The position numbers were made by a program, and so were the translations under genes. DNA of 64,000 bases from Aphelidium insulamus. Taxonomy: Eukaryota > Aphelidiomycota > Aphelidea > Aphelidiaceae. Positions 37,585-60,821 of the stretch are shown in pieces. How positions within the stretch are numbered: the stretch's first letter is position 1; each line of letters opens with the position of its first letter. Below the pieces are notes generated by a model. That model was not told where the DNA came from and ran no database searches. It saw nothing but the letters and a program-made list of their open reading frames with translations. Location: NCBI GenBank assembly GCA_036784855.1, contig JAZDSV010000009.1, positions 167,001 through 231,000 on the forward strand. Reading direction: 5' to 3'.

Positions 37585-37614
37585 GTTCTCTCATGCGGTG
37601 TGTGAATGTGTATG

Positions 37615-37643
37615 TAGAGAGAGAGAGAGAGAGCGAGAGAGAT
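37615..37643. repeat. GA-rich simple repeat
   Basis: (GA)n with one interruption, just upstream of the membrane protein A start codon at 37584. GA tracts often lie in core promoters. Confidence 0.8.
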
Positions 37644-37827
37644 GCGTGAGAAGGTGATCCGCAACGCAACTCCGTTGACCGAAGGAGGCGTGGCGCTACA
37701 TACACATTCACACACGGACCTCTACCACTATGTATGCACACGCTGTGCCTACAGAATGTATAAAACAACATTATGCATGTTCAGGGATCAATTGTGTATT
37801 GATGGTAAATAACCATTGTGCAATTGT

Positions 37828-38706
37828 TCAGACCTTGCTGGTGGCCGCGATCTGGACAGTGCTGCATTGCGCGGGAAGCAGTTTGGCCAGTTCGGGCGTG
37901 CGCTTGCCAAAGCGTACAAGCAGCTGTGTGTGTTTATAATTGCTATAGCTATTGACATACTATACGAACCTCAAATGCAAAGTAAACCGGCGGAATGTGA
38001 GTGACGGCGGCAAAGGCAACCAGCAACAGCGCGGCCAGCGGTCCCAGCGGCAAGTTCATCATCATGAACAGCGCGCTCAACAGCTCCATCACCACCAGCG
38101 GCGAGTAGATGGCAACGGCGTACGTGGCAAACACCGCCGCCATGGGGCACGAGGTGCCGTCCGTGGAGTCACGGCGGTCAATGTATCGCGCCTGGAACGC
38201 GGTCATGGCGGAGAAGAGCCACGCATCGGTCAGTATCACCACGCCTCCCACTACACCAGCCGGCTCATCGGCGCCAAACAGTACAAATGCCACGGTGATG
38301 AGCGCCGCAGGTACCAACGCCAAGAAGTAGAGGCGCAGCTCAAATCGATAACTATCTGCAATGCCGCTGTCCTTGTAGTTGAGTCCTGCAGTCAATGCTT
38401 AGTTGAGACATATTTCCACGTTTATGCACACGCACGCTGAACAAGCAGGACCAGTGCCAAGACAACGACAATTACCGACACCACGGTGCCGGCAACGGCA
38501 GGTGACGACTCCAAGCTACGGGCGAACCAGGACGCCACAAAGTTGGCAATGCCGAATGCGGCCGGGAATATAATCAGGCCATCGTCCACGCCAGCCGCGG
38601 TTTTCATGTGCCAGCTCTTGAGCACCTGCAGCAGCAATGCCACGGACAAGAATAGACTGGCCAGCAGCACAAAGTAGGGGGCGTACGAGAAGTCGGGCGG
38701 AGTCAT
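37828..38706 (-). CDS. Multipass membrane protein B of a tandem pair
   Basis: Exons 38436-38706, 37970-38385 and 37828-37923 give 260 residues. Same plan as its neighbour at 36647: LLQVLKSWHMKTAAGVDDGL, IIFPAAFGIANFVASW, DAWLFSAMTAFQARYIDRR, Met/Leu-rich span 6, and a tail ending TSKV. Exon phases and positions are identical to protein A, so the pair arose by tandem duplication. All donors here are GT. The ATG at 38706 directly precedes TPPDFSYAPYF and the first span. Confidence 0.7.
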
Positions 38707-39096: not shown

Positions 39097-39645
39097 CTAC
39101 TCGTCCAAGCTGCTTTCCATGCTAGTGCTTATGGGCGGGAACACATTTGCCTGGAACTGTCCCAGATAGTTGCCTGGTGGCGAGTACTGACACACGACGA
39201 ATTTGCCAAACGGGCAGGACGCGGTGCCGCAGCCCAGCTCGCGCGAACTCTTCCACACCACTTGTGTAAAGTGTCCAGTCGCCTGCGAGAACCCGCCCGT
39301 CTCGTAATTGTAGCTCACGTTCTCGTCGTACCACAGTCTGGTGGCCGTCTGCTGCGGGCTGGGATAGGTGCCGGCGTAAATGTTCTCTCCGGCATAGCCA
39401 CGCTTGTCCGGTGTGCTGTGTTCAAACACGCAGCGGAGAGCGTGTGCCCGTGCCTGCTTTGCCAGACTGCTTGACCATACTAGCGGCGGCACAGAGTGCA
39501 CGGCGCGGTACTGATTGTGCAAGAGGAGCACAGGTGGTGTCGTTAGCGCGGTGATTAGTGCTGTTTCATTCAGCGGCAGCGCGTCACACAAAGCACTCAC
39601 GTAAGCAAGAAGGCAGAGTATGTGAACCGTGGATGTGAGCTGCAT
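39097..39645 (-). CDS. Secreted CAP-superfamily protein 1
   Basis: Single exon, 182 residues. A signal peptide (MQLTSTVHILCLLAYVSALC) precedes a full CAP domain: LLHNQYRAVHSVPPLVWSS, C-VFEHSTPDKRGYAGENIYAG, LWYDENVSYNY, GHFTQVVWKSSRELGCG, FVVCQYSPPGNYLGQF. These are the CAP signature motifs, with the two histidines and two glutamates of the cavity and the expected cysteines. CAP proteins are stable secreted proteins; some bind sterols or lipids. No extra domains. It stands next to a second CAP gene of different sequence. Confidence 0.92.
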   Translation of the reverse strand: MQLTSTVHILCLLAYVSALCDALPLNETALITALTTPPVLLLHNQYRAVHSVPPLVWSSSLAKQARAHALRCVFEHSTPDKRGYAGENIYAGTYPSPQQTATRLWYDENVSYNYETGGFSQATGHFTQVVWKSSRELGCGTASCPFGKFVVCQYSPPGNYLGQFQANVFPPISTSMESSLDE

Positions 39646-39794
39646 TTTATAGACAAATGATCTGCACTGTAATGAAGGCGGCCTGCACACTCGCAATTTA
39701 TAATCGCCAGTGGCTTGGCGATCTCAATCTGATCAATGATTGGGTGGAATGATTGCAAGAAATAAGAAGGTGAATGACGAGCTTTATGGATGAA

Positions 39795-40448
39795 TTATGC
39801 ATCCGGTTGGTAGAATTCCGTATTTGCCTCAAATTGTCCTGGTGCAAGGTTGTTACCGGCAGGCGAGTAGTTGCAGGTCACCATCCACTGACTACCGCAT
39901 TGCTTTACCGCGCAACCAACATTCGTCGTAGTCTTCCAAATCATCTGAGTGTAGTGACCAGTAGCCTCAGACATTCCCTTGGTTTTGTACAGCGCATGCT
40001 CATCAAACCACATCTTGATTGCGGTGACACCAGCGTCGATGTCAGTGGCTGCACTGCCGGCAAAGATGTTTTCGCCAACGCCGGGATTTCCGGTATGCGC
40101 ATACTTGCACTTGTTGACATTTCCCCCCGCCATCGCAGCCAGATTTGAATCCCAGTTTAATGGTGCTGTATTAGGAACGAGAGCACGGTCGGCGTTGTGC
40201 GCGTTTAACATTGCCACAGCAACAGGGTCAAGAGTAAGTTGCTGCGAACCGCCATCATCAGGTGGACTTGGCGCAGGACCTGGCGCAGGACCTGGTGCAG
40301 GACCTGGCGCAGGTGGCGGTGCTTGCGGTTGGGCTGGGGGCTGGGTACCCGGAGCGGGAGCCACGGCGTTAGCATCCTCGCAACCGCCCAGTGCAACGCC
40401 GGCAAGCATGGATGCCAGCAAGACCGCAACTTTCATGTTGATCTGCAT
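39795..40448 (-). CDS. Secreted CAP-superfamily protein 2 with Pro/Ala/Gly linker
   Basis: Single exon, 217 residues. MQINMKVAVLLASMLAGVAL is a signal peptide. A low-complexity spacer (repeats of PAPG, 40255-40360) follows. The CAP domain has LNAHNADRALVPNTAPLNWD, YAHTGNPGVGENIFAG, MWFDEHALY, GHYTQMIWKTTTNVGCA and VTCNYSPAGNN. The Pro/Ala/Gly spacer is typical of proteins held at or crossing a cell wall or coat, but no anchor is seen. It could start 11 bases lower at the second ATG. Confidence 0.9.
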   Translation of the reverse strand: MQINMKVAVLLASMLAGVALGGCEDANAVAPAPGTQPPAQPQAPPPAPGPAPGPAPGPAPSPPDDGGSQQLTLDPVAVAMLNAHNADRALVPNTAPLNWDSNLAAMAGGNVNKCKYAHTGNPGVGENIFAGSAATDIDAGVTAIKMWFDEHALYKTKGMSEATGHYTQMIWKTTTNVGCAVKQCGSQWMVTCNYSPAGNNLAPGQFEANTEFYQPDA

Positions 40449-40578
40449 TATTATATGATTATTATAGAATAACTGCTCAGTGCGGGTTATTTCGTGAATG
40501 TAAAGCAGAATTGAAACGCGTTTGCGCAGTGTTTTATGTGGCGACGTGATTGTTACACGGATCAAGTGTGCGTGCGAC

Positions 40579-40651
40579 ATTAAATGCGCTCTGATTGGCC
40601 GCTGGTCACTTTCTAATATTGGCGTGGGCCAATTAGAGCGCGGCATTAAAT
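40579..40651. promoter_or_regulatory. Inverted repeat with two facing CCAAT boxes
   Basis: The left arm 40579-40600 (attaaatgcgctctgattgg) and right arm 40627-40651 are imperfect complements. Both carry ATTGG/CCAAT. They lie 130-200 bp upstream of the CAP2 start. Confidence 0.5.
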
Positions 40652-40761
40652 TGGGTGTTTCATGAGGAATATTGGTTATTTATTTTTGCTTATAGTGTTT
40701 CATGTGCATCATCGTGCCTGAGCGTGTCAGACAAAATAGATTTATGTACTTTTATGTTTAC

Positions 40762-40880: not shown

Positions 40881-43800
40881 TTAATTCCCATAACTACTAT
40901 TTCCCTTTAGGGTCCAGGCTTCACGCTTGCATGCAATAAAGTAGAGAACAATAGAGAAGGAGAAAATGTCGCCTTGGAATGCGCTCTTCATTCCAACTAC
41001 ATTGTCTCTGCAGCGAAATCGTCGAATGACCTCTGGAGCAGAGTATGTAATTGTGAGCCCATTAACATTAATCACGTTGAAGCCATCAACCAGCTGCGAG
41101 TTGCTGGAAAATATGTTGGCAATGCCGAAATCGCCCAACACACAGACCGCGCCGCCAGCACTGTCAATATCGACGAAAATATTTTCCGCTTTAATGTCGC
41201 GGTGTGCCACGCCTTTGCTGTGCATGTACTGCAATGCTCCCACAATATCCTTGGAGAACACAACAATCTGACTCTTCAGCTTGAAGTATCCCTCGAGAAT
41301 AAAGCTGCGCAGATTGCCCAGCTCATAGTACTTTAACAGAATAGCCAGCGGCTCTTCGCACCAGCCCAGTAGCTGGCTGATATTGCGATGCCGGCCCAAG
41401 TACTGCAGCACAGCCAGTTCCTGGTCGAATGCCTGTCCCGCACGTACTGAGACGGCAGAACGAGATGGCGCCACAATCTTCACGACCAATTGACTGCCGC
41501 CGGTGGCATTAATGAGGCCTTCTGTGAAGCCACGACCGAGATATACTTGTCCCTCGCCGCCCTTTGCAAGCAGAGATTCCCATCGGAAATCGCGACCGGC
41601 CTGTAGTTGCAAGAAACCCGGAATGGCAAACTCCGTGTGAGCGTTGATCATGGTCGTATTGTTGTTGTTGTTGGCGACATTCGTGCGGCCCATGTATGTG
41701 TTTGTCTGCAGTACGGAGTTGCTAGTAAAGTCGTCCATGAGAATTTGCCTGCTGAGTCCCGTTGTTTTCGTGTTCAATTGCTTGTTTGGACGCGCACATA
41801 GCTTGACCACAGCAATTGCAATACAGATGAACAAGAGCAGGACAGCAGTACAAAATATCGCAATCATTGTCCAAGAGTTGGTCCATTCCTGAAGCAGGGA
41901 TGACGAACCGGGAAGGGTACTGCTCTGGCCGTGATTGTCGACAATGGTGGGCTGACACTGTGCTTGTGTGGAATTGCTGGCACACACAGTGCACGGATCA
42001 TTTCCAGACACTTCTTTGTAGGATCCCTGAGGGCAAGGCGCACACGTTGTTCCATTCCGGGCCAATGTGTACCCAGAATTACAACTGAAAGTCGCACTGT
42101 TGCACACAGAGTTGCCGGGGCACTGGTCGCACGCTCCGTTGCCAATTGTAAGCTTGACCTTGCCGAACGGGCACGGCGCGCAACTATTACCGCTCAGCTC
42201 ATAGCCCGGCTGACACAAGCATGCATTTGCGTAGATTGTGCTGTTCGTCGATGTGGTGGATCCGTCCGGACATGATGTACAAACAATGTTGCCGGCATAG
42301 CTTTTATACGTTCCCACAGGACACGCACTGCACACCGTGCCATTCCACCGCAGGCCTGCAGCGCACACACAGGTCGAGGCATCGGTCGATCCAGTAAGCA
42401 GCGTGGTGGTGCCGTCCGGACAAGCCAAACATGTGTCATTACCGTTCAGTGATTTGTATGTCCCAGCGGAGCACGGCAAGCACGCAGACCCACCCTGGGA
42501 CAAGGACGATCCCGGCAGACAGACAAGCGATGCTCCGATACAGTAAGAGTTGGCCGGACAAGCAGTACACGCCTCATTTCCCGGTGTCATCTTGTAACTA
42601 CCGACACCGCACTGTGTGCACTGTGTGCCATCAGCAGACAGTGTGTAGCCGGCAGCGCATGTGAAATTAGTGCTGGTACATGTGGCAGTGTTGGAAGGGC
42701 AGGCCGCGCACGTAATATTCGAAATGACAGCCTTGTAGGTTGATGGCGGGCATACGAAGCAAGCTGTTCCATTCCAGCCGAATCCAGACGCGCACAGACA
42801 GCTTGAGGATGCCGCGGATCCCGTGGTTAGAGTGCCGAGGTTTGTCGGACAGCGGGTACATTCCCCGTTGCCAGCTACAGACTTATATGTGCCCGCTGCA
42901 CACGCCACACACGACAGGCCATCTGCCGAGACAGTGTACCCAACAGCACAAGTAAATGAGGTACTTGTGCACGACGAGTAAGCCTGGGTGGAGCATGATG
43001 TGCACGTCGAATTGGAAAAATCGATCTTGAACGAGTTGGAGACACATGCAGTGCACATTGACCCATTCCACTCAAATCCAGCGGCACACGAGCACGTGGC
43101 CGACCCAGTGGTGTTGGTGGACATTGTCGCGGGACACGCCGTGCAACTTCCATTGCCAGCCAGGTACTTGTACGTGTTAAGCGGGCATACATTGCATACT
43201 TGAACATTGGCAGCGGGTGAAGTACCAGCCGCACAAATGTTGTTTGGCGCCGTGTCCCGGCAAACAGAAGGCGGCCGTGGCACAAACGTGGCCGGGTCAA
43301 ACACATAGCGATAATATGTGGCGCCAAATGGTGTAAATGGTTGCTCATTGCAGTCCGGGTAGCCAATGAACTTGGCACACACGCCAAAGTCCGACACAAA
43401 CGGCTGCACGAAACCGTAGTCTTGTTGTGGTGAGCAGGCATCTGTGATGTTAACATTATGATATACAAAGATGTTCATCCATATACGCACAAGGATTAAC
43501 ATCCACCCAGCCAGCGGTGTCATACGTGGCATTCCAGTTCCAGCCATCTCGCACCAAGGCAGAGTTATTTGTCGCTTTCCAGCCAGACATGTCGCCAGTG
43601 GTGGTGACAATCTTGTTGTTGTAGAGCAGTGCGGCCAGAATGCCAAAGCCGTCACTATATTGGTAATTATCCATGGATTTGGTGGCAAGTACAATCGGCA
43701 CCGTCCCGTCCACAGTCAGCTTGTAATCAGCTGCGCGCGCCCTGTCAGCCGTGAAGTCGCCGCTGAACCACGCTGCGAGCATGTTATATTAACAAATTAA

Positions 43801-44607
43801 TTTTATGGACCTACAGTCATAGTCATTCATGGTGTAGTTGGCCAGATAGGCGATGGTGTATGTTTGAGAGCTGAGGCGTAGTTGTAACGATGGCTTGGAC
43901 CCGTCTTGTGGTCCGACCTTGTACTCGCGCCATTGTGACCATGGTTGAATGGCATTATAGTATGTATGAGTCGCGTTGTCGCATGTTAAGTTCAGGTTTT
44001 CCGGCACTGTAAACACCATGCGGACAGACAAGTAGCGCCCTGCGGACGCGGTGCAGCTGCCATTAACGGCAATCCACTGTGGCTGCGGTGCCGAAGAGTT
44101 ACCACGGCTTATGAAATCCAAGTAAGACTCTCCAAAGGCATTAACCGTGGCAGGCGCGCTACTACACGCCACGCCCGGCTGCCAGGTCGGTGCTTGAGCA
44201 ACAAAGTTTGGCTTAGCGGCAATTGAAGAACCAGTGGAGGACGTGTTCCAGTTGGACTGCCCGGTGAACGTGATCAAGTGGTTGCCATAGAACATTGATG
44301 CCATGAATCCTGTGGTAGGCGTGCGGTGATACACGGTAAAGTAGACACCGTACGTCGTTGATGGCCTGAGCCAGAATGTGTGATTTGACATTCTATCCGC
44401 GGCGGTGCTAACGATCTTGTCGCTTGCCAACAAGTTGTTCGAAAACGAGTCGTGGCCCATGAAATAGATCGGCGTGGTCCCATCGTCAATCACCGCGTGC
44501 CAGTCATCAAACGCGGCCACTCGAAACTGTACTGGAACTAGGCAGGTGGCGTACACATTGGCGGCGATTACCGCAAGAAAGGCCGTGAAGCCCCACAGAT
44601 CTTTCAT
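40881..44607 (-). CDS. Receptor-kinase-like protein K1
   Basis: Exons 43815-44607, 43491-43772 and 40881-43441 give 1211 residues. Signal peptide (MKDLWGFTAFLAVIAANVYA); ectodomain of two related modules (each with a GF...Y-N/GN-TG--W core) to about residue 360; then a long cysteine-rich stalk of repeats like the ephrin-receptor/GCC2-GCC3 type (pattern C-P-G-YK-GN--C--CP, with frequent NGT/NGS glycosylation sites); one membrane span at about 882-905; a kinase domain from about 977. Kinase motifs: AKGGEGQVYLG, VVKIV, AFDQEL, HRDIKAENIF, GDFGIAN, SAPEVIRR, GDIFSFSI. It stops at 1211, right after helix F, with a short tail TLKGNSSYGN. Closest general group: TKL/RTK-like. The ligand is unknown. 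Confidence 0.85.
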
Positions 44608-44854
44608 CGATGTTTGAACGATTCTCGAAGGTGTAGTGTGGGTGTCGGTAAACGGTTTACTCCGCGATTGGATGGTCTGTTCCCGCGATGACCCGAGTGC
44701 CTATTTATAGGTGCTGCCCGAACATCGCCTGGGATGTTATTCGTATAGATGAACTACCTACGTTGTTCTGGAATCACTTACAGAACTGCATGTGATACGT
44801 CGTAGCCATAATAGAGTCTATTGACGACTAGCATATGAAGGTTAAACAATCCCT
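44608..44854. promoter_or_regulatory. Spacer holding the K1 promoter
   Basis: 247 bp between the K1 start and the K2 stop. No open frame continues the K2 kinase domain here. Confidence 0.5.
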
Positions 44855-47800
44855 TCACTTTGCCCACGCCTCCTTCTTGTTCTGAAGCAGATAGAGCAGT
44901 ATGGCCACCGAGAAAATGTCGCCACGAAGTGCATCATCCATGCTAATATCATTGTCACGTGCGCGATAGCGTCGAATAACCTCTGGGGCAGAGTATGAGA
45001 TCGTCAGGCCGTTCAAATTGACCACGTTGAAGCCGTCGACCAGATGCGCGTTCTTGGAGAAGATATTTGCGATGCCGAAATCCCCAAGCACACACACAGC
45101 GCCGCCCTCCTCATCCAGATCAATGAAGACATTGTCGGCCTTGATGTCGCGGTGTGCCACACCCTTGCCGTGCATGTACTCCAGTGCGCCACAAATGTCC
45201 TTGGCAAATATCATGACCTGTCCCTTGGTCTGCATGTAGCCCGACTTGATGAAGCCGCGCAGACTGCCCATCTTGTAGTGTTTCATCAGTATGGCCAGCG
45301 GTTCCTCACACCACCCGAGCATGTGAGAAATGTTGCGGTGTCTGCCCAAGTAGTGCATCACTGCAATCTCCTGGTCGAACGCTTGCGATGCTTTGAGAGA
45401 GATGGCGGACCGTGTGGGCGCCACGATCTTCACCACCAGTGCGCCGTCGTCGTACTTGCGCAGCTCGCTGCTGAATCCCTGACCCAGAAACACCTCGCCG
45501 CCGCCACCCTTGGCCAGAGACTTCTCCCAGCGAAAGTCTCGACCGGCCTGCATCTGCAGGAATCCCGGCATGGCGAACTCGGTGTTGTTGAATAGAAACG
45601 TGGTCGTATTGGCGTTGGCTGTGTATGTGCGCGCCGAGTACGCATTGGTCTGCAGTACAGACGTGCTGGTGAACTCGTTCATACCCGCAGATTTCCGGCT
45701 ATAGTCGCTTTCGCCCACGGCAATGCTCGGGCGCTTGTGTGACGCATTTCGGCCACAGCACCTGAGCAGCGCCACGGCCAGTGCGACCAAGATGGCCAGC
45801 AGGACGGCGGCCGCGATTGCAATATTGACGGAACTAAGTTCAATGCCCGCCACGGATGCCGTGACACTGGACGGCATCTCATTGACCTGTTCGGCACCGA
45901 CAGGCGATACTGACGGTGTGGCTGCGAGGCACTGCGAGCTGGCCGAACCCGAGACACACGGAGTGCAAGTGCCGTTGCCCACCGAGTCCTTGTAGGTCCC
46001 ACTGGCACACAGCGCGCACGTTGAACCATTTAACATCGGGGTGGCACCAGAGGCACACAGTACAGACGTGGCAGTGCACGCTGCGTTAGTAGGGCACGGC
46101 GCGCACGGCACATTGCCCACATCAAGCTTGACAGTATTGGCGGCACATGCGCCACAAGCCAGGCCATCCCACCCATAGCCAGGCAGGCAGACACAGCCGC
46201 CAGCAGTCACCGTACTGTTGGTCAGTGTTGTAGACCCGGCAGGGCACAGGGAACAAGCGGCAGTGCCCGCCACCGACTTGTAGGTGCCCACGGCGCACGG
46301 AGCGCACACCGTCCCATTCCCAAACAGTCCGGCGCCACATACACATGATGCGGCGCTCAATGAGCCACTGGCCAGTGTGGTTGTCCCGGAAGCGCAGGCA
46401 GTGCATGTTCCGTTGCCGGCGCTAGACTTGTATGTGCCCACGGAGCACGGCAAGCACGCCGACCCGCCCTGTGCCAGCGACGACCCGGCGCTGCACATGA
46501 ACGAGGCGCCACTGCACTGCGCGTTCGCCGGGCACAGTGAACACGCATCATTACCCGGTGTCATCTTGTACGATCCCGCGGCGCACAGTGAGCACGTGGA
46601 GCCGTTGGCCGATAGCGTGTAGCCGACATCACAGGTGAAGGAAGTTGCATTGCATGCCGAGATGCTGGCGGGACACTGAGAGCACGCAGTGTTGCCCAAT
46701 GCCGACTTGTAGGTGCCGGTGGTGCACGAAGCGCATGACGCCCCGTTCCCACTGAACCCTGGGACACACATGCAGCTGAAAGGGGATGTGGCGCCCGTAG
46801 AAGCTGTAGTTGCATTCGCACTGCATGCCAGGCACTGTCCATTACCGGGTGCGGTCTTGTATGTGCCCGCTGCACACGCCACACAAGACAAGCCATCTGC
46901 CGAGACAGTGTACCCAGCAGCACAAGTAAATGAGGTACTTGTGCACGACGAGTAAGCCTGGGTGGAGCATGATGTGCACGTCGAATTGGAAAAATCGGTC
47001 TTGAACGAGTTGGAGACACATGCAGTGCACATTGACCCATTCCAACCGTATCCAGCGGCACACGAGCACGTGGCCGACCCAGTGGTGTTGGTGGACATTG
47101 TCGCGGGACACGCCGTGCAACTTCCATTGCCAGCCAGGTACTTGTACGTATTCAGCGGGCAAATATTGCATACTTGAACATTGGCAGCGGGTGAAGTACC
47201 AGCCGCACAAATGTTGTTTGGCGCAGTGTCTCGGCAAACGGAAGGCGGCAGTGGCACAAACGTGGCCGGGTCAAACACATATCGATAATATGTGGCGCCA
47301 AATGGTGTAAATGGTTGCTCATTGCAGTCCGGGTAGCCAATGAACTTGGCACACACGCCAAAGTCCGACACAAACGGCTGCACAAAACCATAATCTTGTT
47401 GTGGTGAGCAGGCATCTGTGATGTTAACAACATAATACACAAAGATGTTCATCCATAAATAAGATACGCACAGGGATTAACATCCAACCAGCCGGTGGTG
47501 TCATACGTGGCATTCCAGTTCCAGCCATCTCGCACCAAGGCAGAGTTATTTGTCGCTTTCCAGCCAGAAATGTCGCCAGTGGTGGTGACAATCTTGTTGT
47601 TGTAGAGCAGCGTGGCCAGAATGCCAAAGCCGTCGCTATACTGGTAATTATCCATGGATTTGGTGGCAAGTACAATCGGCACCGTCCCGTCCACAGTCAG
47701 CTTGTAATCGGCGACACGAGCTCTGTCGGCCGTGAAGTCGCCGCTGAACCACGCTGCACCAATTAAATATCCACATGATATTACTAGACATTACACTATA

Positions 47801-48614
47801 TACCTTCATAGTCATTCATGGTGTAGTTGGCCAGATAGGCGATGGTGTATGTTTGGCCACTTAGACGCAATTGAAGCAATGGCTTGGACGCGTTCTGCGG
47901 CCCAACGTTGTACTCGCGCCACTGCGACCATTGTTGCACGCGGTTAAAGTACGGATGAGTTGCGTTGTCGCACGTCGGGTTCGGGTTTACGGGAACGGTA
48001 AACACCATGCGGACAGACAAGTAGCGCCCTGCGGACGCAGTGCAACTGCCATTCACGGCAATCCACTGTGGCTGCGGTGCCGAAGAGTTACCACGGCTTA
48101 TGAAATCCGTGTACGACTGTCCAAATGCATTAACCGTGGCTGGCGCGCTACTACACGCCACGCCCGGCTGCCAGGTCGGTGCCTGTGCAACATAATTTGG
48201 CTTGGCGGCAATAGTGGAACCTGAGGAAGACGTGTTCCAGTTGGACTGGCCAGTCTGCGTGATCAACTGGTCGCCATAGAACATTGATGCCATGAATCCG
48301 GTGGTTGGCGTGCGGTGATACACGGTAAAGTAGACGCCGTACGTCGCGGGCGGCAGCCACACTGTAAAGTTCATCATGCGGTCTCCGGCGGTGCTTGGGA
48401 TCGCGTCATTTGCAAGCAGCTTGTTCGAGTACGAGTCGTGGCCCATCACGAAAATATCGCTGTGCACATTGTCGCTGATTACTCCGTGCCAGTCTTCGAG
48501 TGCCGCCACACGGAACTGTACCGGCGTATTGCAGCTCGCATCCGAACAAGTAGCAAGTATTGCAACAGTAAGCGCTAACCATTTAACTATTTCGTGCTGC
48601 ATCGATCTAAGCAT
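44855..48614 (-). CDS. Receptor-kinase-like protein K2
   Basis: Exons 47804-48614, 47472-47753 and 44855-47415 give 1217 residues. Same plan as K1, and exon 3 has the same length (2561 bp). Membrane span at about 893-915 (VNIAIAAAVLLAILVALAVA). Kinase motifs: AKGGGGEVFLGQG, VVKIVAP, AFDQEIAVM, HRDIKADNVFID, GDFGIANIFS, SAPEVIRRY, GDIFSVAILL. The protein ends KKEAWAK straight after. Exon 2 and the first 560 bp of exon 3 are almost identical to K1, while the rest is clearly diverged. The start could be the ATG at 48614 or the one at 48602, which precedes the hydrophobic signal sequence. Confidence 0.85.
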
Positions 48615-48839
48615 ATTTGGAGTATAGCAGCTCGGAAAGTGGCGACGAGGTGCTGGCTGTCATTGCCGTCATTCACCGCGATTGGGATTGGTCTCCCGCA
48701 GGCCGACCAGGTTGGTCATTATCACTAAATAAAGTTCGTGTTCCAAGAGTTGCTTCCACCTAGGCAATGTTCTTAGGGTTCCACATATCGACAAAGCAGG
48801 TTTTATATTATAGAAATGTGTGTTTAGATTTCCAGCTGC

Positions 48840-51800
48840 TTATTTCCACGCTTCCTTCTTATTCTGAAGTAGGAAAAATAGCATGGCCAAGGAATAAATA
48901 TCGCCACGCAAAGCATCTTCCATACTTGCACTGTTATCTCGCGTACGAAACCTCTGAATGACTTCTGGCGCCGAGTACGCAATGGTAAGGCCGTTGATGT
49001 TGACCACGCGAAAGCCATTCACCAGTTGAGCGTTGCGGGAGAAAATATTGGCAATTCCAAAGTCGCCCAATACGCACACAGCACCGCCCTGAGCATCAAT
49101 GTCAATGAACACGTTCTGTGCCTTGATGTCGCGATGTGCCACTGCCTTGCCGTGCATGTACTCCAGTGCACCGCAAATGTCTTGGGCGAACATGTAGAGC
49201 TGCGCCTTTGTGGTCAGATAGCCCGATTGGATAAATCCATGCAGATCGCCCAGTGTGTAGTGCTTCATCAGTATGGCCAGGGGTTCCTCGCACCAGCCAA
49301 GCATCTGTGAGATGTTTCTATGCCGGCCCAGGTAGTGCATCACCGCGATCTCCTGGTCAAATGCTTGTGAGGCCTTGAGAGCAATTGCTGAGCGGCTGCT
49401 TGCCACAATCTTTACCACCAATTCACCCTCGCCCCCATCTTTGCGCAAGTCTGGAGCAAACCCCTGTCCTAGAAACACTTCGCCGCCGCCTCCTTTTGCC
49501 AGTGGCGTCTCCCAACGAAAATCACGTCCAGCCACAAATTGCAGGAACCCCGGCATGGCAAACTCTGTATTGTTCACCATCATCGTTGTGGCATTCGTGG
49601 TCGTATTATAGGTGCGCGTGGAATAAGTGTTGGTCTGCAACACAGATGTACTGGTGAAATCATCTTCAGCCATTCGTCTCGCGGCCCTGGGAGAAATCAA
49701 ACTTGACCGCTTGCCACGTTGTTTTCGACGCTGGCCGACTTTGATGACCACAATGCCAGCTATGATGAAGAATGCTAATATAACAGCAGCAAATATGATG
49801 CTATTAGTAGTCGATAGCTCGATACCATTGGCAACGGTATCTGTCACTGAGCCTTGATGCGTCTGCACGGTGGTATCCGTGGTGATGGTTGCACCAGGCA
49901 AGTAGGAGCACTGAGCATTGGTGGAACCAGGCGGACAAGGCGCACACGCTTCATCACCAATATTGTCCTTGAACGTTCCGGAGGTACATTGCACACACAA
50001 AAGACCAGATGCCGCTCGAGTGTATCCCGCGGCGCATAGCGTGGACGTTGCGTTGCACACGGCATTTACGGGACAGGCCTGGCAGGCTGTATTTCCAATG
50101 TCAAGCTTGATCTTGTTGGCGCCACATTGTTGACACTGGAATCCATCCCACTCGTAGCCGGGCTGGCACACGCAGCTGTCTGAAGTAATCGATCCGTTGG
50201 TTGCGGTTGTATACCCAGTGGGACAAGTGGTGCAGTTTGTGTTGCCAATTTGTGGCTTGTAGGTTCCAATGGCGCAAACGTTGCAGCTGACTCCATTTGC
50301 AAACTGCCCGGCAACACAGAGACAATCGGAGCTATTGATGGTGCCGCTGGACAACGTGGTTGCTCCGGACGGACATGCTGAGCAGGTGCCATTCCCGGCC
50401 AATGACTTGAATGTTCCGACTGCGCATGCCTGGCAGGAGACCCCATCTTGTGCCAGTGTGGTGCCAGAAGCACACGTGTAATAAGTCGCAGTGCATTGTG
50501 CGTTTGCTGGACAAGTAGAGCAGGCTCCTTTTCCTGCATTTGATTTGTATGTTCCAACCGCACACTGAACACATGTTGTGCCATTCGCGGAAAGCGCATA
50601 TCCAGCGTTGCAGGTGAACGTTGTTGTATTGCACGAGACAGTATTTGCCGGGCAGGCGGTACAAGCAGCGTTGCTCAGCGCCGACTTGTATGTGTTGGCG
50701 GCACACTGACTGCACACCGTTCCATTCCATCCAAAGCCGGGTGCACACTGGCAACTAAATTGGCTTGTTGACGCCGTAGTGGCCGTGATGGCATTGCCGG
50801 CACAAACCAAACACTGGCCACTTCCCGGTGACGATTTGTATGTTCCCACTGCGCATGCCACGCATGATGTGCCATCCGCCGAGACGGTGTATCCAGCGGC
50901 ACAAGTGAACGATGTGCCAGTGCACGATGCATACGCCTGTGACGAGCACGATGTGCAGGTGGCGTTAGAAAATTCAGCCTTGAAAGAGTTGGCAGGACAT
51001 GCCGAGCATGAAACACCATTCCAACCAAACCCCGGTACACATGAACATGATGTTGCCGCAGTTGTATTGGTGGACGTTGTCGCAGGGCAAGCAAGACACG
51101 ACGCATTTCCAGCAAGGCTCTTGTACGTATTCATAGGACACAGATTACACTCGTATGAATTGACAGAGGGGGAAGTACCGGCCGGGCACGGCGTTGCTGG
51201 CACATCGTTGCATATAGACTGTGGCTGTGGGTCATACGTCGTAGGATCGAATATGTATCGATAGTAGTAAGCCAGGTTGCTGTAGTAGGGCTGTTCGGCG
51301 CATGCTGGATAGGCAATAAACTTGGCACATGCGCCCAGGTCCGATACAAATGGCTCCACAAATCCATAGTCTTGCAGCAGGGTGCAGGGATCTGTGTTTT
51401 AGATGAGCTAGGCGTGGACATGACAAGGTATAATAATCTTACTCGGGCTGACATCCACCCAGCCAGTAGTGTCATAGTTGTAGTCCCAGTTCCAACCTGG
51501 ATTGACGAGGGACGAATCGTTGGTCGCCTTCCAGCCAGACGTGCCACCAGTCGTTGTCACGATATTATTGTCGTAGAGCAGCGAGGCTACTATTCCATAT
51601 CCATCACTGTACTGATAATAGTCTCTGGACTGAATTCCTAGCACAATTGGTGAACTGTCCACAGTCAGCTTGTAGTCGGCCACGTGTGCCCTGGTTTGTG
51701 TGGCGTTTCCATTGAACCATGCTGTACAGATATGAGTAAATATGTTATAACACATAATGCATACTACTTGCCTTGATTCTCGTCAATAGTGTAGTTGGCC

Positions 51801-52513
51801 AAATAAGTCAGTTTGTAAGTCTGGCTACTGATTCGTAGCTGAAGAGCTTTGCTTCCATTCTGCGCACCGATTTTATACTCGTGCCACTGTGACCATGGCT
51901 GGACCGACGACATGTATGGGCTGTTGTTGCTGTTGGTGGGACATATGGCCGGCACAGTGAATGACACTTCGGCAGACATGAAGTTGTAGAAACCATTTGC
52001 ATTCACGCAGGTGCCGTTGTGAGCCACCCAAACTGGTTGGAACGCAGACCGGTTGCCCATGCTGACAAAGTCCACGTACGACTGGCCGAATGCGGTGGTC
52101 AGTCCCGGGGCGACACTGCACGGAATGGCTGTCACATTTAAAGTATCCGAAACAACGCGCCATCCAGACATCCCCGTCTGTGTCAGAAGAGTGTTGCCGG
52201 CAAACACGGCTCCCATGAAGCCGGTGGTGGTGAATCGGTAATCGACATCGAACCGAGCGTTGTAATAGCCAGGTGCCAGCCACAGCGTAAAGTTCATCAG
52301 ACGGTCGGACGATGTACTGGGAATCTTATCATTTGCCAACTCGCCATTAAGTCGGCGATCATGGCTCATCAAGAAGCGTTTGTATGTTCCATCAACGTCG
52401 CTGATTACAGCCTTCCACTGCTCAAATGCTGCCACTCTAAATTGTGTGGGCACCAAGCAGCCAGCTAAGGCGCCATTCACAGCTAGCGCGGCGAGGAATA
52501 TTTTTTTTACCAT
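48840..52513 (-). CDS. Receptor-kinase-like protein K3
   Basis: Exons 51772-52513, 51443-51721 and 48840-51391 give 1190 residues. Signal peptide MVKKIFLAALAVNGALA; two-module ectodomain; cysteine-rich stalk; membrane span at about 870-890 (IIFAAVILAFFIIAGIVV); kinase motifs AKGGGGEVFLGQG, VVKIVASS, HRDIKAQNVFIDI, GDFGIANIF, SAPEVIQRF, GDIYSLAML; end KKEAWK. Intron 1 begins gcaagt: a GC donor, where K1 and K2 have GT at the same codon phase. The nearest relative is K4. Confidence 0.85.
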
Positions 52514-52808
52514 TATAGTTATTGGATGCAACACACGGTGCCAACACAGTGATATAACAAATCTGATTGGTTTCGGTCACCTTGCATGACCAGTGCCATG
52601 TGACGACGCTGCAGCCATAGCTGAAACTGTGCTAGAAGGGCAAATTGCCTTCTTCAAACTGCCAAATGGCAGAAGGCAGTTTTTCAAGTTTAATTGTAAG
52701 CAACTATAATTTTACGATGCCAATGACGATGATTACAATATATTTCTAAAATTGCTTCAACTGTCGTATGTAATTGAATCTTAGCAGAGAAAAGAATATC
52801 GAATTTGC
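52514..52808. promoter_or_regulatory. Spacer holding the K3 promoter
   Basis: 295 bp. It includes an inverted repeat (ctgccaaatggcag with flanking aaattgccttcttcaaa, about 52640-52685) that could fold past the K4 stop. No gene. Confidence 0.5.
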
Positions 52809-55800
52809 TTACTTCCAAGCTTCCTTCTTATTTTGGAGCAAGAAAAATAGCATGGCCACGGAAAAAATATCGCCACGCAACGCATCCTCCAGACTTGCAC
52901 TGTTATCTCGCGCACGGAATCTCTGAATGACTTCTGGAGCCGAGTAGGCAATGGTAAGGCCGTTAATGTTTACCACGTGAAATCCTTCCACCAGCTGAGC
53001 ATTTCGGGAGAAAATATTGGCAATTCCAAAGTCGCCCAATACGCACACTGCGCCGCCCTGAGTGTCCATGTCAATGAACACGTTCTGTGCCTTGATGTCG
53101 CGATGTGCCACACCCTTGTTGTGCATGTACTCCAGTGCACCGCAAATGTCTTTGGCAAATATGTAGAGCTGCGCCTTCGTAGTCAAGTGTCCTGCTTTAA
53201 TGAAGCCTTGCAAGTCGCCAAGCTTGTAGTACTTCATTATGATGGCCAGCGGCTCTTCGCACCAACCAAGCATTTGAGAAATGTTGCGGTGTCGACCCAG
53301 ATAGTGCATCACCGCGATCTCCTGGTCGAATGCTTGGGAGGCCTTCAAAGAAATATCCGAACGATTTGTCGCCACAACCTTGACCACTAGTGCACCATCG
53401 CCCCCATCTTTGCGCAGGTCTGGAGCAAATCCTTGACCGACAAACACCTCTCCGCCACCACCTTTGGCGAGCGGAGTCTCCCAGCGAAAGTCACGTCCAG
53501 CCACAAATTGCAGGAACCCCGGCATGGCAAACTCGGTGATGTTGACCATAAGCGTAGTTGCATTGGCAGTGGTGTTGTAGGTGCGCGAGGCGTACGAGTT
53601 GGTTTGCAGTACCGAAGTGCTAGTAAAATCTTGGTCCGTCTTTCTTCCTGTGGAGCTTGTAGCAGTTGTCAAGCTCGGCCGCCTTACATGCTGTTTGCGA
53701 CGCAGACAGACCCTGACCACCACAATGCCAACTATGATGAAGAATGCAAGTACAGCGGCCACAAATATCGCAATATTTGTTGTCGATAGTGTGACACCGT
53801 TTACCACAGGGTCGGTCGATGCACCTTGATTCTGTTGCGCAACATTGTCAGTAGTCGTATTTGCTGCAGGCGTGTAGGAGCACTGGGCATTGGTGGAACC
53901 AGGCAGACAGGGAGAACACGCTTCATCACCAATATTGTCCTTGAAGGTTCCCGAGGCACATTGCACACACAAAAGACCAGATGCTGCTCGAGTGTATCCA
54001 GCGGCGCATAACGTGGACGTTGCATTGCACACGGCATTTACGGGACAGGACTGGCAGGCAGTATTTCCGATGTCGAGCTTGATCTTGTTGGCGCCACATT
54101 GTTGACACTGGAATCCATCCCACTCGTAGCCGGGCTGGCACACGCAGCTGTCTGAAGTTATTGAACCATTGGTCACGGTTGTATATCCGGTGAAGCAAGT
54201 GGTGCAGTTTGTGTTGCCGATTTGTGGCTTGAAGGTTCCAGTGGCGCAAACGTTGCAGCTGACTCCGTTTGCAAAGAGCCCGGCAACACAGAGACAATCG
54301 GAGCTATTGATGGTGCCGTTGGACAACGTGGTGGCTCCAAACTGGCACGTCGAGCAAGTGCCATTCCCGGCCAATGACTTGAATGTTCCGACTGCGCATG
54401 ACTGGCAGGAGAGCCCATCTTGTGCCAGTGTATTGCCAGAAGCGCACGTGTATGAAGTCGCCGTGCATTGTGCGTTTGCTGGACAGCTAGAACAGGCTCC
54501 GTTTCCTGCATTTGCCTTGTATGTAGCGGTCGCACACTGAACACATGTTGTGCCATTCGCGGAAAGCGTATATCCAGTGTTGCAGGTGAACGTTGTTGCA
54601 TTGCACGAGACAGTATTTGCCGGGCAGGTGGTACAAGCAGCGTTGCTCAGCGCCGACTTGTATGTGTTGGCGGCACACTGACTGCACACCGTTCCATTCC
54701 ATCCAAAGCCGGGTGCACACTGGCAACTAAATTGGCTTGTTGACGCCGTAGTGGCCGTGATGGCATTGCCGGCACAAACCAAACACTGGCCACTTCCCGG
54801 TGACGATTTGTATGTTCCCACTGCGCATGCCACACATGATAAGCCATCCGCCGAGACGGTGTATCCAGCGGCACAAGTGAACGATGTGCCAGTGCACGAT
54901 GCATACGCCTGTGACGAGCACGATGTGCAGGTGGCGTTAGAAAATTCAGCCTTGAAAGAGTTGGCAGGACATGCCGAGCACGATACACCATTCCAACCAA
55001 ACCCCGGTACACATGAACATGATGTTGCCGCAGTTGTATTGGTGGACATTGTTGCAGGGCAAGCAAGACACGACGCATTTCCAGCAAGGCTCTTGTACGT
55101 GTTCATCGGACACAGATTGCACTCGTATGAATTGACAGCGGGGGAAGTACCGGCCGGGCACGGAGTGGCTGGCACATCGTTGCATATTGATTGTGGCTCT
55201 GGGTCATACGTCGTGGGGTCAAATGTGTACCGATAGTAGTAAGCCAGGTTGCTGTAGTAGGGCTGCTCTGCGCATGCCGGATAGGCAATAAACTTGGCAC
55301 ATGCGCCCAGGTCCGATACAAATGGCTCCACAAATCCATAGTCTTGCAGCAGTGTGCAGGGATCTGTGTTGTAGATGAGCTAGGCGTGGACATTACAAGG
55401 TATAACAATCTTACTTGGGCTGACATCCACCCAGCCAGTAGTGTCATAGTTGTAGTCCCAGTTCCAGCCCGGATTGACCAGGGACGAATCGTTGGTCGCC
55501 TTCCAGCCAGACGTGCCACCAGTTGTGGTAACGATATTATTGTCGTAGAGCAGCGAGGCTACTATTCCATATCCATCACTGTACTGATAATAGTCTCTGG
55601 ACTGGATTCCCAGCACTATAGGAGAACTGTCCACAGTCAACTTGTAATCGGCCACGTGTGCTCTGGTTTGTGTGGCGTTTCCATTGAACCATGCTGTACA
55701 GATATGAGTAAATATGTTATAACACATAAGTTATAACACATAATGCATACTACTTGCCTTGATTCTCGTCAATGGTGTAGTTGGCCAAATAGGTCAGTTT

Positions 55801-56505
55801 GTATGTCTGGCTACTGATTCGTAGCTGAAGAGCTTTGCTTCCATTCTGGGCACCGATTTTATACTCGTACCACTGTGACCATGGCTGGACCGACGACATG
55901 TATGGGCTGTTGTTGCTGTTGGTGGGACATATGGCCGGCACAGTGAATGACACTTCGGCAGACATGAAGTTGTAGAAACCATTTGCATTCACGCAGGTGC
56001 CATTGTGGGCCACCCAGACTGGCAGGAGCGCGGACTGATTGCCCATGCTGACAAAGTCCACATACGACTGGCCGAATGCATTTGTTACCGCTGGAGCAAC
56101 GCTGCACGGAATGGCCGTAACATTCTGCTCAAAGGAGAAAACGCGCCAATCTGGCATCCCCGTCTGTGTCAGAAGAGTGTTGCCGGCAAACACAGCACCC
56201 ATGAAGCCGGTGGTGGTGAATCGGTAATCGACATCGAACCGAGCGTTGTAATACCCAGGTGCCAGCCACAGCGTAAAGTTCATCAGACGGTCCGACGACG
56301 TGCTGACAATCTTGTCGGTGGCCAACTCGCCATTGAGTCGGCGATCGTGGCTCATCAAGTAGCGTTTGTACGACCCATCGAAGTCGCTGATTACAGCCTT
56401 CCACTGCTCGAATGCTGCCACTCTAAATTGTGTGGGCACGAGGCAGTCGGCCAGAGCGCCACTGACTGCAAAAGCCGCAAGGCAGATGAGGTGTCGTCTC
56501 AGCAT
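52809..56505 (-). CDS. Receptor-kinase-like protein K4
   Basis: Exons 55758-56505, 55415-55693 and 52809-55363 give 1193 residues. Signal peptide MLRRHLICLAAFAVSGALA; domain order as in K3; membrane span at about 872-893 (IAIFVAAVLAFFIIVGIVVV). Kinase motifs: AKGGGGEVFVGQG, VVKVVATN, HRDIKAQNVFIDM, GDFGIANIF, SAPEVIQRF, GDIFSVAML; end KKEAWK. Intron 1 uses the same GC donor as K3 and is 14 bp longer because ttatgtgttataac is doubled. It is the first gene of the cluster in the direction of transcription. Confidence 0.85.
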
Positions 56506-56790: not shown

Positions 56791-58907
56791 ATGCCCACAG
56801 TCGCAGTGGACAAGGAGCGCCTGTTCGCCGCCATTGGCGACCCCGGCATGACCATTGCCGCGTTCGAGGAGCTATGCTTTGATTTCGGTGTGGAGTTGGA
56901 CGACGTGACTAGCGAGCGTGAGATGGCGCTGAAGGAGCACCACGGGCAACTGCTTGCTGGAGGCGCGTCCACCGCGAGCGCCCCCGCCAAGGCCCTGTCC
57001 GACCGCGTCATATTAAAGATTGACGTGTCGGCCAACCGCTACGACTTGCTGTGTCACGAGGGTATTGCGCGGGCATTGCGCGTCTTTCTTGGCCGTCAAG
57101 AGTTGCCCGTCTATCGGGCCATTCTGCCTGCCAAGCCTGAGCGCATACACGTCCGGGAATCGGTAACTATGTATATTATCATATAATATATATATATATA
57201 TATATTCAACTCTTCATACTATATATAATGTCTGCAGGTGGCGTCCATACGACCGTTTGTGGTGGCGGCCGTGCTGCGCGGTGTCAAGTTTGACGCCTTC
57301 AACTATGCCAGCTTTATCGACTTGCAGGACAAGCTGCATCAGGGCCTTTGCAGGTACTTCTATGTATAACTATACGCCCTATAATTATAACTGTTGTGCA
57401 GGCGACGACAAAAGGTTGCAATTGGAACGCACGATTTGGACACCGTTAGCGGCCCGTTCACCTATGAGGCACTGGCGCCTGAGGAGGTCTCGTTCGTGCC
57501 GCTGAACCAGACCGCGCGCATGGACGGCAACCAGCTGATGCAGTTCTACGAGACCGATCGCCGGCTGTCCAAGTACCTGCCCATTATCCGCGACTCGCCC
57601 GTCTATCCGGTGGTGCGCGACTGCAAGCATCGCGTACTCAGCCTGCCGCCCATCATCAACGGGGATCACAGCAAGATATCGCTGTCGACACGCAACGTGC
57701 TCATTGAGTGCACTGCCACCGAAGAGGCCAAGGCGTGCACCGTTCTCAACATGATGGTCACAATGTTTAGCGAGTACTGCGCCTCTCCCTTCACGTACGG
57801 GGTTTAAGTGTGATAGCGTTTGATACTATATTGCTGAATACTCTTTACATGGCCTCAAACGCTTTTTATTTACAGGGTGGAGCAAGTGGAGGTCGAGTAT
57901 GAGCACAGTGGGCGCCGTTGCGTGTATCCAGACCTGTCGCCGCGGCAAATGAACGCTTGCGTGGACTACATCAACAGCTGCATCGGCGCTGGCATCAACC
58001 TCTCTGGCGAGCAGGTCCGAGCATTCCTCGCCAAAATGGGCATGGGCAGCACACTGGGGACCGCGATCACGGGCGAGCAGCAGGTTCAGGTGGAAGTCCC
58101 GGTCTCGCGCAGCGACATCATGCATGCGTGCGATATTATGGAAGATGTGGCGGTTGCGTACGGCATCAACAACATTCCACGCACCGTGCCCAACACCTCA
58201 ACAGTCGGCGCGCCACTGCCGCTGAACAAGTTGTCAGACTTTGTGCGCCGAGAGTTGGCCCTGGCTGGCTGGACTGAAGTTCTGCCGCTGACACTGGTAT
58301 ATTTGGTCATAGTTATACTCGAATCTAATATCATGCGCTGTAGTGCTCAAATGACGAAAATTTCGCCCATCTTCGCCGCGCAGACCCGGGCAACGAGGCC
58401 GTGGTGCTCGCCAATCCCGCCACCATCGAGTACCAGGTGGTGCGCACATCGCTGCTGCCCGGCATGCTAAAGACCCTGGCGGCCAACAAGTCCTCGCAGC
58501 TGCCACTGCGCCTGTTTGAAGTGGGCGACGTGGTGCTGCAGGACGCCACCAACGACCGTCGTGCCCGCAATGAGCGCCGTGCCTGTGCCGTGTACGTCAA
58601 TCGCACCAGTGGATTCGAGCTGGTGCAGGGATTGCTGGACCGGCTGATGAAGATGTTGATGGTGGATCCGGGTGTATTGGGCGCACAGCCGCCCGCAGAC
58701 AAGACAGCAGCCATAAGCCACACTAGCACCTACTCGATCCATGAAAGTCAGTCGCCAACTTTTTTCGCGGGACGTCAGGCCGAGATTGTGCTCAATGGAA
58801 GCCGCGTCATTGGCCACGTGGGCATTGTGCACCCGGAAGTGCTGGCCAACTTTGACATTCAGTACCCGTGCAGCGCCGTGGAGATCAACATTGAGCCGTT
58901 CCTGTGA
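56791..58907 (+). CDS. FARSB: Phenylalanyl-tRNA synthetase beta subunit, cytosolic
   Basis: Exons 56791-57162, 57238-57353, 57402-57794, 57876-58296 and 58344-58907 give 621 residues (human 589). Starts [78 protein letters not shown]; then B5 and the catalytic-like core: [40 protein letters not shown], and ends [12 protein letters not shown]. All blocks match the eukaryotic cytosolic beta subunit. It forms the alpha2-beta2 enzyme with FARSA, encoded tail to tail just downstream. A small insert ([20 protein letters not shown]) near residue 65 is longer than in animals. Confidence 0.96.
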
Positions 58908-59015: not shown

Positions 59016-60821
59016 TCAGTGCGCAATCTCTAGACTGGCCATCTCCTCCACCGCACTCTTCTCCTTGCCCATCTGCTTGTCCATACGGTAGATGGGACTA
59101 TTCTTTATCATGTCCAAATCGACGCGATGCCCCAGCAGCTCGCGTATATTGTCAATGCCGTACTTGATCATGGTCGGGCGCTCCAGGCTGAGACCCCATG
59201 CGATCACACGCACACCCGCCGGCAGACCCAGCGGCAGCAGCATCTCCGGTCGGAACATTCCCGAATTGCCAATCTCGACCCACTTCTTCAGCCCAGAGTG
59301 GTAGGAGAAGATTTCCAGCGAGGGCTCCGTGTACGGGTTGTAGGTGGGCTTGAAGCGCAGAGTCTTAGCGCCCTGTTTCTTGAAAAAGATGTCCAGAAAG
59401 CCAATTAGGTCACCCAGTGTCAGCCCATAGTCCGCGATAAGACCCTCCACCTGGTGGAATTCGGCCAAATGCGTCGCGTCCACCGTCTCATTGCGGAACA
59501 CCCGGTCGATGGAAAAGTACTTGGCCGGTTTGAATTCCTTTTGCTGTGCCAGCTTGTACAGCATGTAGCTGCTGACGGCAGTGGTGTGCGTGCGCAACAA
59601 CAGCTTCTCCGCCTCGCTCTCCTTCCACTCGTAGCCGTGCCCGGTGGAGCCGTACCCACCCACCGAATGCACCTTCTTCACGCGCTCCACATAGTCGGCG
59701 GGATGGGAGTTTGTGGTGGCGGGTGACTTGATGAAGAATGTGTCGTGCATGTCGCGCGCTGGGTGATCCTGCGGCTGGAACAGTGCGTCAAAGTTCCAGA
59801 AGGAGCTCTCCACGTAGCGATTCGTGGGCATCTCTTCAAATCTGTAGTGTCGTTAATGGGCTTTTTACAGATTATATGCAACTGTACGAACCCCATTTCA
59901 AAAAAGATTTGTCGCAACTCTTCCCGAACCTTCATCAACGGGTGAATGTGACCGCCTGTCGGGGCAATTCCTTCCGCCTGAAAATTGTACCGCTTGAATT
60001 CCAAAGTTTTCCATGAGCCGCTTGGAAATTAGATAACTTCAAATACACCTATGCACACAATTCACATACCTTTGGATCATATCGGCTGTGATATCGGTGG
60101 CTTGCTGCTTGATTGTAAGTGAGAATTCGGGACCCTTCTTGACGCTAAACCACACACGCTTCCTACTGCATGTCAGAATAGAATCTTTACTTATAGTCAT
60201 ACATATATATATATATATATATATATGCATGACTATAATTATATTGTACATACCCCTTGTCGCAAAGCGTCCGCTTACGAAGGTCCTTGAGCACGTCGGC
60301 GTTGGCGTGCGTGCCAGACTGCACGACTTGCCGCAGATCATCACGCGTCTGGTCCACAATACTTGCAACCAGCCGCACCAGCCGGTCCCCACTCTTCTGA
60401 ATCCACTTGTTCTTGAACGCTTTACCCTGACCCACCTTGAGCACGGTGGCATCAGCCCACTTGCTCTGCAGATCCGCCAGCGCGATTCCAGCGGCACCCG
60501 CGGGCACGGCCTCAAACACTATTGCCTCGTGACTCCCATTGTCGACAATGTCACGACCTTCCTCGGTCACGGTCCACACCTCGCGCTCATGTGTCTCGAA
60601 CTCGACCATCTATGTGTTGTTGAAGAATGAGTGGGACGGCGCGCGACTAATAATCTCTATAGCTGACGGAAAGCACGCACCGCGCGACTGGCCAGACGCT
60701 TCAACACGCCCAGCACCAGAGCCGCATCGTCACTGACGGCGGTGGACGTGTTGTCAATGCTGCCTGTGGCGTCCAACTGGCGCAGAATGCTCTCTTGCAC
60801 CGCGGCTGATGCGTCGTCCAT
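59016..60821 (-). CDS. FARSA: Phenylalanyl-tRNA synthetase alpha subunit, cytosolic
   Basis: Exons 60681-60821, 60254-60609, 60070-60165, 59892-60020 and 59016-59841 give 515 residues (human 508). The N-terminus has winged-helix DNA-binding-fold segments ([20 protein letters not shown]). Then [57 protein letters not shown]. The catalytic core has [62 protein letters not shown] and [16 protein letters not shown], all class II motifs. It charges tRNA-Phe. The start ATG follows a hairpin-forming promoter element at 60848. Confidence 0.96.

Follow-up and report, generated by a model that had tools for sequence, protein, structure and literature searches.

Results

Four receptor-kinase-like genes of an aphelid

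Which kind of protein does a tandem array of four receptor-kinase-like genes (K1 to K4) of Aphelidium insulamus encode, and how complete is its kinase domain? The array was found in a stretch of 64,000 nucleotides (positions 167,001 to 231,000 of contig JAZDSV010000009.1), hereafter referred to as the window, of which it occupies positions 40,881-56,505. Aphelids are described in the available text of PMC10608142 as algal parasitoids and a sister lineage to Fungi. An earlier reading of the window from its letters alone (the original prediction) had proposed four same-strand paralogues with a common three-exon plan, each carrying a signal peptide, a two-module ectodomain of unfamiliar type, a cysteine-rich stalk of a recognised type, one membrane span and an intracellular kinase domain. 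The joined gene models bore out this plan. A kinase match was indeed present; what had gone unnoticed is that both the match and the reading frame stop after helix F. On the basis of the sequences, K1-K4 are probably single-pass surface receptors of a lineage-specific family with a pared-down kinase.

The array is filled by four minus-strand genes (1,190-1,217 amino acids; K1, 1,211; K2, 1,217; K3, 1,190; K4, 1,193), which were assembled from stop-to-stop frames by reading the junctions and joining the exons, and it extends from the stop codon of K1 at position 40881 to the ATG of K4 at position 56505 (Table 1). In all four genes, exon 1 is followed by an intron of 42-64 nt, exon 2 of 279-282 nt, an intron of 49-56 nt and exon 3 of 2,552-2,561 nt; both introns are in phase 1, and joining the exons gives an open frame in every case. 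The gaps from a stop codon to the next ATG measure 225-295 bp. Intron 1 of K3 (51722-51771) and that of K4 (55694-55757) are of the GC-AG type with the donor AAG/GCAAGT, and the remaining six introns, including those at the same site in K1 and K2, are of the GT-AG type.

The kinase domain ends after helix F

The exon-3 open reading frames (ORFs) of K1 and K3 were used for the Pfam scan of the stalk and the kinase. The Pkinase match ended near position 197-204 of the 263 positions of the profile, and the reading frame ended there too. Related kinases were compared in 47 distinct stop-to-stop frames from the fetched loci whose alignment to the K3 kinase covers HRD and helix F; these comprise the best-scoring relatives and a sample of 18, and represent part of the family. 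The frame ended 13-28 residues past the helix-F aspartate in 45 of the 47, K1-K4 included. As read from this alignment, helices G-I (subdomains X-XI, the usual last quarter of the domain) are absent from the K1-K4 kinases, a feature shared with most of the relatives examined. Counting by alignment replaced counts by text pattern, which had required an intact catalytic loop and DFG; without the pattern filter, six frames with the same end (L045, L046, L047, L082, L083, and L086) and one exception, L059, were added.

The catalytic residues were largely retained. The Asp of HRD, the Asn and the Pro-Glu of APE were found in all 47 frames, the Asp of DFG in 44 and its glycine in 45, and the beta3 Lys and the helix-C Glu were present in 29 of the 29 frames that include the N-lobe. 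K1-K4 keep every one of these residues and show none of the losses (catalytic Lys, HRD Asp or DFG Asp) by which a pseudokinase was defined. Because the catalytic residues are kept, K1-K4 look like working reduced kinases and not like decayed ones. Their catalytic loop reads HRDIKA[QDE]N. The tyrosine-kinase loop is of the HRDLAARN or HRDLRAAN type, to which that of K1-K4 does not conform. A juxtamembrane motif, TEFAxPxFL...AGxxFRW, is also conserved. Among the best PDB sequence matches of the K3 kinase were TYK2, a concanavalin-A-like lectin receptor kinase and B-Raf, all aligned only up to the region where K3 ends.

The helix-F motif W-[SA]-x-G was altered as well. Its Trp occurred in none of the 47 frames and its Gly in five, K1-K4 not being among them, whereas seven ordinary kinase stretches of the same genome had the Gly in seven and the Trp in six. 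According to the available part of PMC1821047, subdomains I-IX are generally common to protein-kinase-like families, and a network of eukaryotic protein kinases (ePKs), made up of APE, the W-[SA]-x-G of helix F, helix G and the Arg at the start of helix I, couples substrate and ATP binding. Judged by the alignment, the aphelid family keeps subdomains I-IX and APE and is without the remainder of this ePK network.

Ectodomain, stalk and membrane span

When module 1 was compared with module 2 using hhalign, a probability of 98.1% and a score of 88.5 were obtained; the best score in 50 column shuffles was 20.3, and that for reversed columns was 12.2. The two units of the original prediction are tandem copies of one cysteine-bearing module of about 170 residues, and the profile comparison identifies the ectodomain as an internal duplication. 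The module is perhaps beta-rich; by eye it had at first been read as a possible jelly roll of the galactose-binding-like or rhamnosidase-N-like kind. It was rightly called unfamiliar: no described relative of the ectodomain was found in Pfam, in PDB or in a search of 5.8 billion proteins, and no Pfam match to an ephrin-binding, FN3 or SAM domain was found in the K1 and K3 exon ORFs scanned or in 10 ectodomains. The stalk corresponds to Ephrin_rec_like (PF07699), with nine stretches each in the exon-3 ORFs of K1 and K3 (E 2.2e-49 and 1.1e-54; 165.5 and 182.4 bits against a cut-off of 23.1), which agrees with the stalk type recognised earlier. Hydropathy gave one strong membrane segment, and accordingly one span, in all four proteins, and a hydrophobic N-terminus above the threshold in three, that of K2 being below it.

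The family in the genome and in other sources

The genome searches covered 17,953,404 bases in 169 contigs; the published assembly of Aphelidium insulamus is given in the available text of PMC10608142 as 18,927,283 bp in 274 scaffolds with an N50 of 252,907 and a GC content of 52.05% (window, 52.8%). The ectodomain (exon 1) gave 25 matches at 23 loci, a few of them partial, and exon 3 gave at least 84. Neighbours of the same family also occur on other contigs (C91, C139, C140, and C150).

Relatives were also found in other sources. P0001, a transmembrane kinase, was 47% identical across 81% of the query region (E 4.8e-71) and shares the short kinase end (...GWYQ) and the juxtamembrane motif; its outer part we take to be Kelch-like from the name of the accession. 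With P0001 as the query, at least 67 matches were obtained in the genome, 61 of them reaching residue 701 or beyond of 713. In P0002 from Amoeboaphelidium occidentale, a single span and a related kinase follow repeats whose accessions are presumably of the WD40 type. This listing suggests that one kinase type is combined with different outer parts.

Some loci deserve separate mention. Related kinases stand behind frames that appear Kelch-like by eye, as in P0001, at L053, L055, L058, and L066. Among the matches listed, which are lower bounds, no kinase match was seen near the ectodomain loci G000:C25:4022, C139:303662, C139:315525, and C106:77165; these are possibly kinase-less receptors or cases of a missed match. 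In the C106 copy, the frame of the joined model is lost in exon 3. A partial K3-like stretch on the opposite strand, 1.7 kb past the window end (G000:C160:232730-233185, plus strand), is 77% identical to residues 591-741 of the K3 exon-3 ORF and is perhaps a broken K3-like copy.

Uneven divergence within the array

Non-synonymous (dN) and synonymous (dS) divergence was calculated pairwise by the Nei-Gojobori method; 18 of the 30 pair-and-region comparisons were computable and 12 were saturated in dS. Between K1 and K2, dS was 0.26 in module 2 versus 1.79 in the kinase, and between K3 and K4 module 2 and the stalk had values of 0.25 and 0.17, versus 1.57 in the transmembrane and juxtamembrane part and 0.71 in the kinase. 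This unevenness suggests gene conversion, which would make the ectodomains alike. K2 resembles K1 outside the membrane (92% identity in module 2) and K3/K4 inside it (79% in the kinase, versus 68% to K1). Because dS between the K2 kinase and those of K3/K4 is also high (2.3-2.7), a faster change of the K1 kinase protein is an alternative to a swap of domains.

Alternative explanations

The early kinase end would be only apparent if the genes encoded full-length receptor kinases, with helices G-I encoded by an additional, fourth exon and the apparent stops lying within the conserved intron before it. Introns do occur in genes of this genome, and several kinase ends read W-S-V or similar. In a pattern-filtered set of 39 kinases, a donor-like GTRNG word follows the last Trp within 20 nt in seven and a bare GT is nearby in 21; however, 11 have no GT in this stretch, and the stop comes 0-10 residues after this Trp in 38 of the 39, against about 20 estimated for a random frame. 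A helix G-I profile run against 297 downstream frames of the 39 kinases gave a best E of 0.57, with only about 300 nt downstream testable in the short fetched stretches, whereas the same profile detected four of five held-out canonical C-lobes at E <= 1.6e-5 and missed the fifth (E 2.5). The kinases of K3 and K4 are 89% identical, yet no mutual nucleotide match was found downstream of their stops, and the gaps before the next ATG are short; the remaining nucleotide matches behind kinase stops sit near the starts of the next genes. One weak protein-level match, which links the sequences that follow the K3 and L044 kinases (48%, 27 amino acids, E 0.005), speaks for an exon, whereas the helix-F Trp, which packs on the missing lobe, is absent throughout the 47 frames. 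We regard a hidden exon as highly improbable. A recoded stop was also considered and is unlikely, all three stop codons occurring at the kinase end.

The remaining alternatives accept the early end. The original prediction had regarded the locus as fast-evolving, and a rapidly diversifying surface array of the antigen-like or recognition kind would fit the tandem arrangement with the same-family neighbours elsewhere, as well as module 1, which differs by half between K1/K2 and K3/K4. The divergence data did not support this: dN/dS was at most 0.44 in the 18 computable comparisons of 30 and 0.03-0.17 in module 2, which had the lowest ectodomain value both in K1-K2 and in K3-K4, and none of these 18 comparisons showed positive selection. 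Moreover, a module 2 dS of 0.25-0.26 beside a kinase dS of 0.71-1.79 in the same pairs suggests homogenisation, and rapid diversification is thus very unlikely. Alternatively, the kinase domains might be non-catalytic platforms, that is, pseudokinases that signal by changing conformation or by binding a partner. Without helices G-I and the ePK coupling network, the docking of peptide substrates should be weakened, which leaves the scaffold reading with some weight; the three of 47 frames without the DFG Asp also point in this direction. Against it stand the HRD Asp and the Asn of all 47 frames, the DFG Asp of 44 and of K1-K4 themselves, the invariant beta3 Lys and helix-C Glu, and a dN/dS of 0.05-0.14 in the four computable pairs of K1-K4 kinases. 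We consider the platform reading unlikely, though it deserves to be kept in mind.

Discussion

The reading we favour for K1-K4 is that of surface receptors with a reduced but catalytically intact kinase. The sequences themselves show the gene models and their architecture, the duplicated module, the common kinase end, the retained catalytic residues of K1-K4 and the low dN/dS; surface location, signalling, kinase activity and ligand, like the gene conversion, we infer. The array would have arisen by tandem duplication, after which gene conversion would have made the ectodomains alike. The two modules may recognise a ligand outside the cell, perhaps a glycan on the surface of either the algal host or the parasite, and binding would cluster the receptor, whereupon the kinase would phosphorylate itself or a partner. 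The docking role of the missing helices G-I may be taken by dimer contacts or by a partner protein, or may be dispensed with.

Several findings weigh against this reading. Two of the 47 frames depart from the common end: that of L059 continues for 177 amino acids in a Gln-rich tail, unlike a C-lobe by eye, and that of L078 has no stop within the fetched stretch. The kinase of P0002 also ends differently, as a gene model. The DFG Asp is lost in three distant frames, the motif reading NFA in L082 and L086 (C129) and GFG in L083 (C91); these are possible pseudokinases with the same short end. Two AlphaFold models were poor (confidence scores, pLDDT, of 40.1 and 38.2) and no fold was drawn from them; at this confidence they speak neither for an ectodomain fold nor for the stability of the shortened kinase. 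The alignment used for the kinase model contained two full-length rows, which were possibly harmful to it.

Receptor-like protein kinases of aphelids (Amoeboaphelidium) are already in print (Mikhailov et al. 2022, cited in the available text of PMC10608142); they belong to the same organism group, and the single-span protein P0002, with its related kinase, also comes from Amoeboaphelidium. What may be new here is the ectodomain together with the shortened kinase end, the latter as a surprise. A description of either was not found among the results listed by searches of the open PMC literature; the main text of PMC11767097 and that of PMC6299283 contain neither the word kinase nor the word receptor, and the available part of PMC10406608 names protein kinases and receptors only in general.

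Among known systems, Eph receptors likewise have cysteine-rich Ephrin_rec_like modules before the membrane, one span and an inner kinase, but K1-K4 differ from them in the HRDIK..N loop and in the kinase end after helix F, and the parts scanned gave no match to an ephrin-binding, FN3 or SAM domain. The best PDB matches of the K3 kinase include kinases of the plant lectin receptor and Raf/TKL groups, but their chains extend past the aligned part, and the ectodomain of K1-K4 is without a match to PDB or Pfam. RIO and Bud32 kinases share subdomains I-IX with ePKs and, according to the available part of PMC1821047, not the ePK-type arrangement of helix G; the aphelid family differs from them in keeping the ePK traits APE and the DFG glycine, the latter in 45 of 47 frames, in being membrane-anchored and in comprising dozens of genes. 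The TMKs of Entamoeba are also a large single-pass kinase family in a unicellular parasite (available text of PMC2880585), a likeness drawn by description only.

More generally, we tentatively propose a large aphelid class of transmembrane ePKs that lack the helix G-I lobe and may still act as kinases. The reduced core would work by itself or be complemented by a second receptor in a dimer or by some other protein, and it would have been combined with different outer parts: the duplicated module on its Ephrin-like stalk, a Kelch-like part and perhaps WD40 repeats. If this is true, helices G-I would not be indispensable for receptor signalling. A family that has lost the APE-linked network and helix G and kept most catalytic residues is a natural test of the need for them. 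Since aphelids branch beside fungi (available text of PMC10608142), their expanded receptor kinases bear on parasite sensing and on the repertoire of the fungal ancestor.

Gene coordinates and neighbouring genes

Table 1 Positions of the K1-K4 exons and kinase domains in the window.
Feature	Position	Strand	Basis
K1 exon 1: signal peptide, module 1, start of module 2	43815..44607	-	joined gene model
K1 exon 2: middle of module 2	43491..43772	-	joined gene model
K1 exon 3: end of module 2, stalk, transmembrane span, kinase, including stop	40881..43441	-	gene model and Pfam
K1 shortened kinase domain, TEFAIPG to last residue	40884..41636	-	Pfam and kinase-end alignment
K2 exon 1	47804..48614	-	joined gene model
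K2 exon 2	47472..47753	-	joined gene model
K2 exon 3: stalk, transmembrane span, kinase	44855..47415	-	joined gene model
K2 shortened kinase domain	44858..45580	-	kinase-end alignment
K3 exon 1, GC-AG intron next	51772..52513	-	joined gene model
K3 exon 2	51443..51721	-	joined gene model
K3 exon 3: end of module 2, Ephrin_rec_like repeat stalk, transmembrane span, kinase	48840..51391	-	gene model, Pfam, and hydropathy
K3 shortened kinase domain	48843..49565	-	PDB sequence matches and kinase-end alignment
K4 exon 1, GC-AG intron next	55758..56505	-	joined gene model
K4 exon 2	55415..55693	-	joined gene model
K4 exon 3: stalk, transmembrane span, kinase	52809..55363	-	joined gene model
K4 shortened kinase domain	52812..53534	-	kinase-end alignment

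The original prediction had placed secreted CAP genes and a membrane-protein pair beside the array. Two tandem ORFs with the CAP domain of cysteine-rich secretory proteins (39097-39723 and 39795-40679, minus strand) do lie directly downstream of K1, but the pair was not identified, the two ORFs at 37031-38440 giving no Pfam match. One of the CAP ORFs has a Pro/Gly/Ala-rich N-terminal stretch. On the other side of the array, the B3/4 and B5 domains of phenylalanyl-tRNA synthetase beta (57391-58470, plus strand) and a class II (F) tRNA synthetase core (59016-59852, minus strand) were found on opposite strands, and an ORF at 62997-63782 (plus strand) matched an RNA polymerase I A49-like factor (E 1.6e-38).

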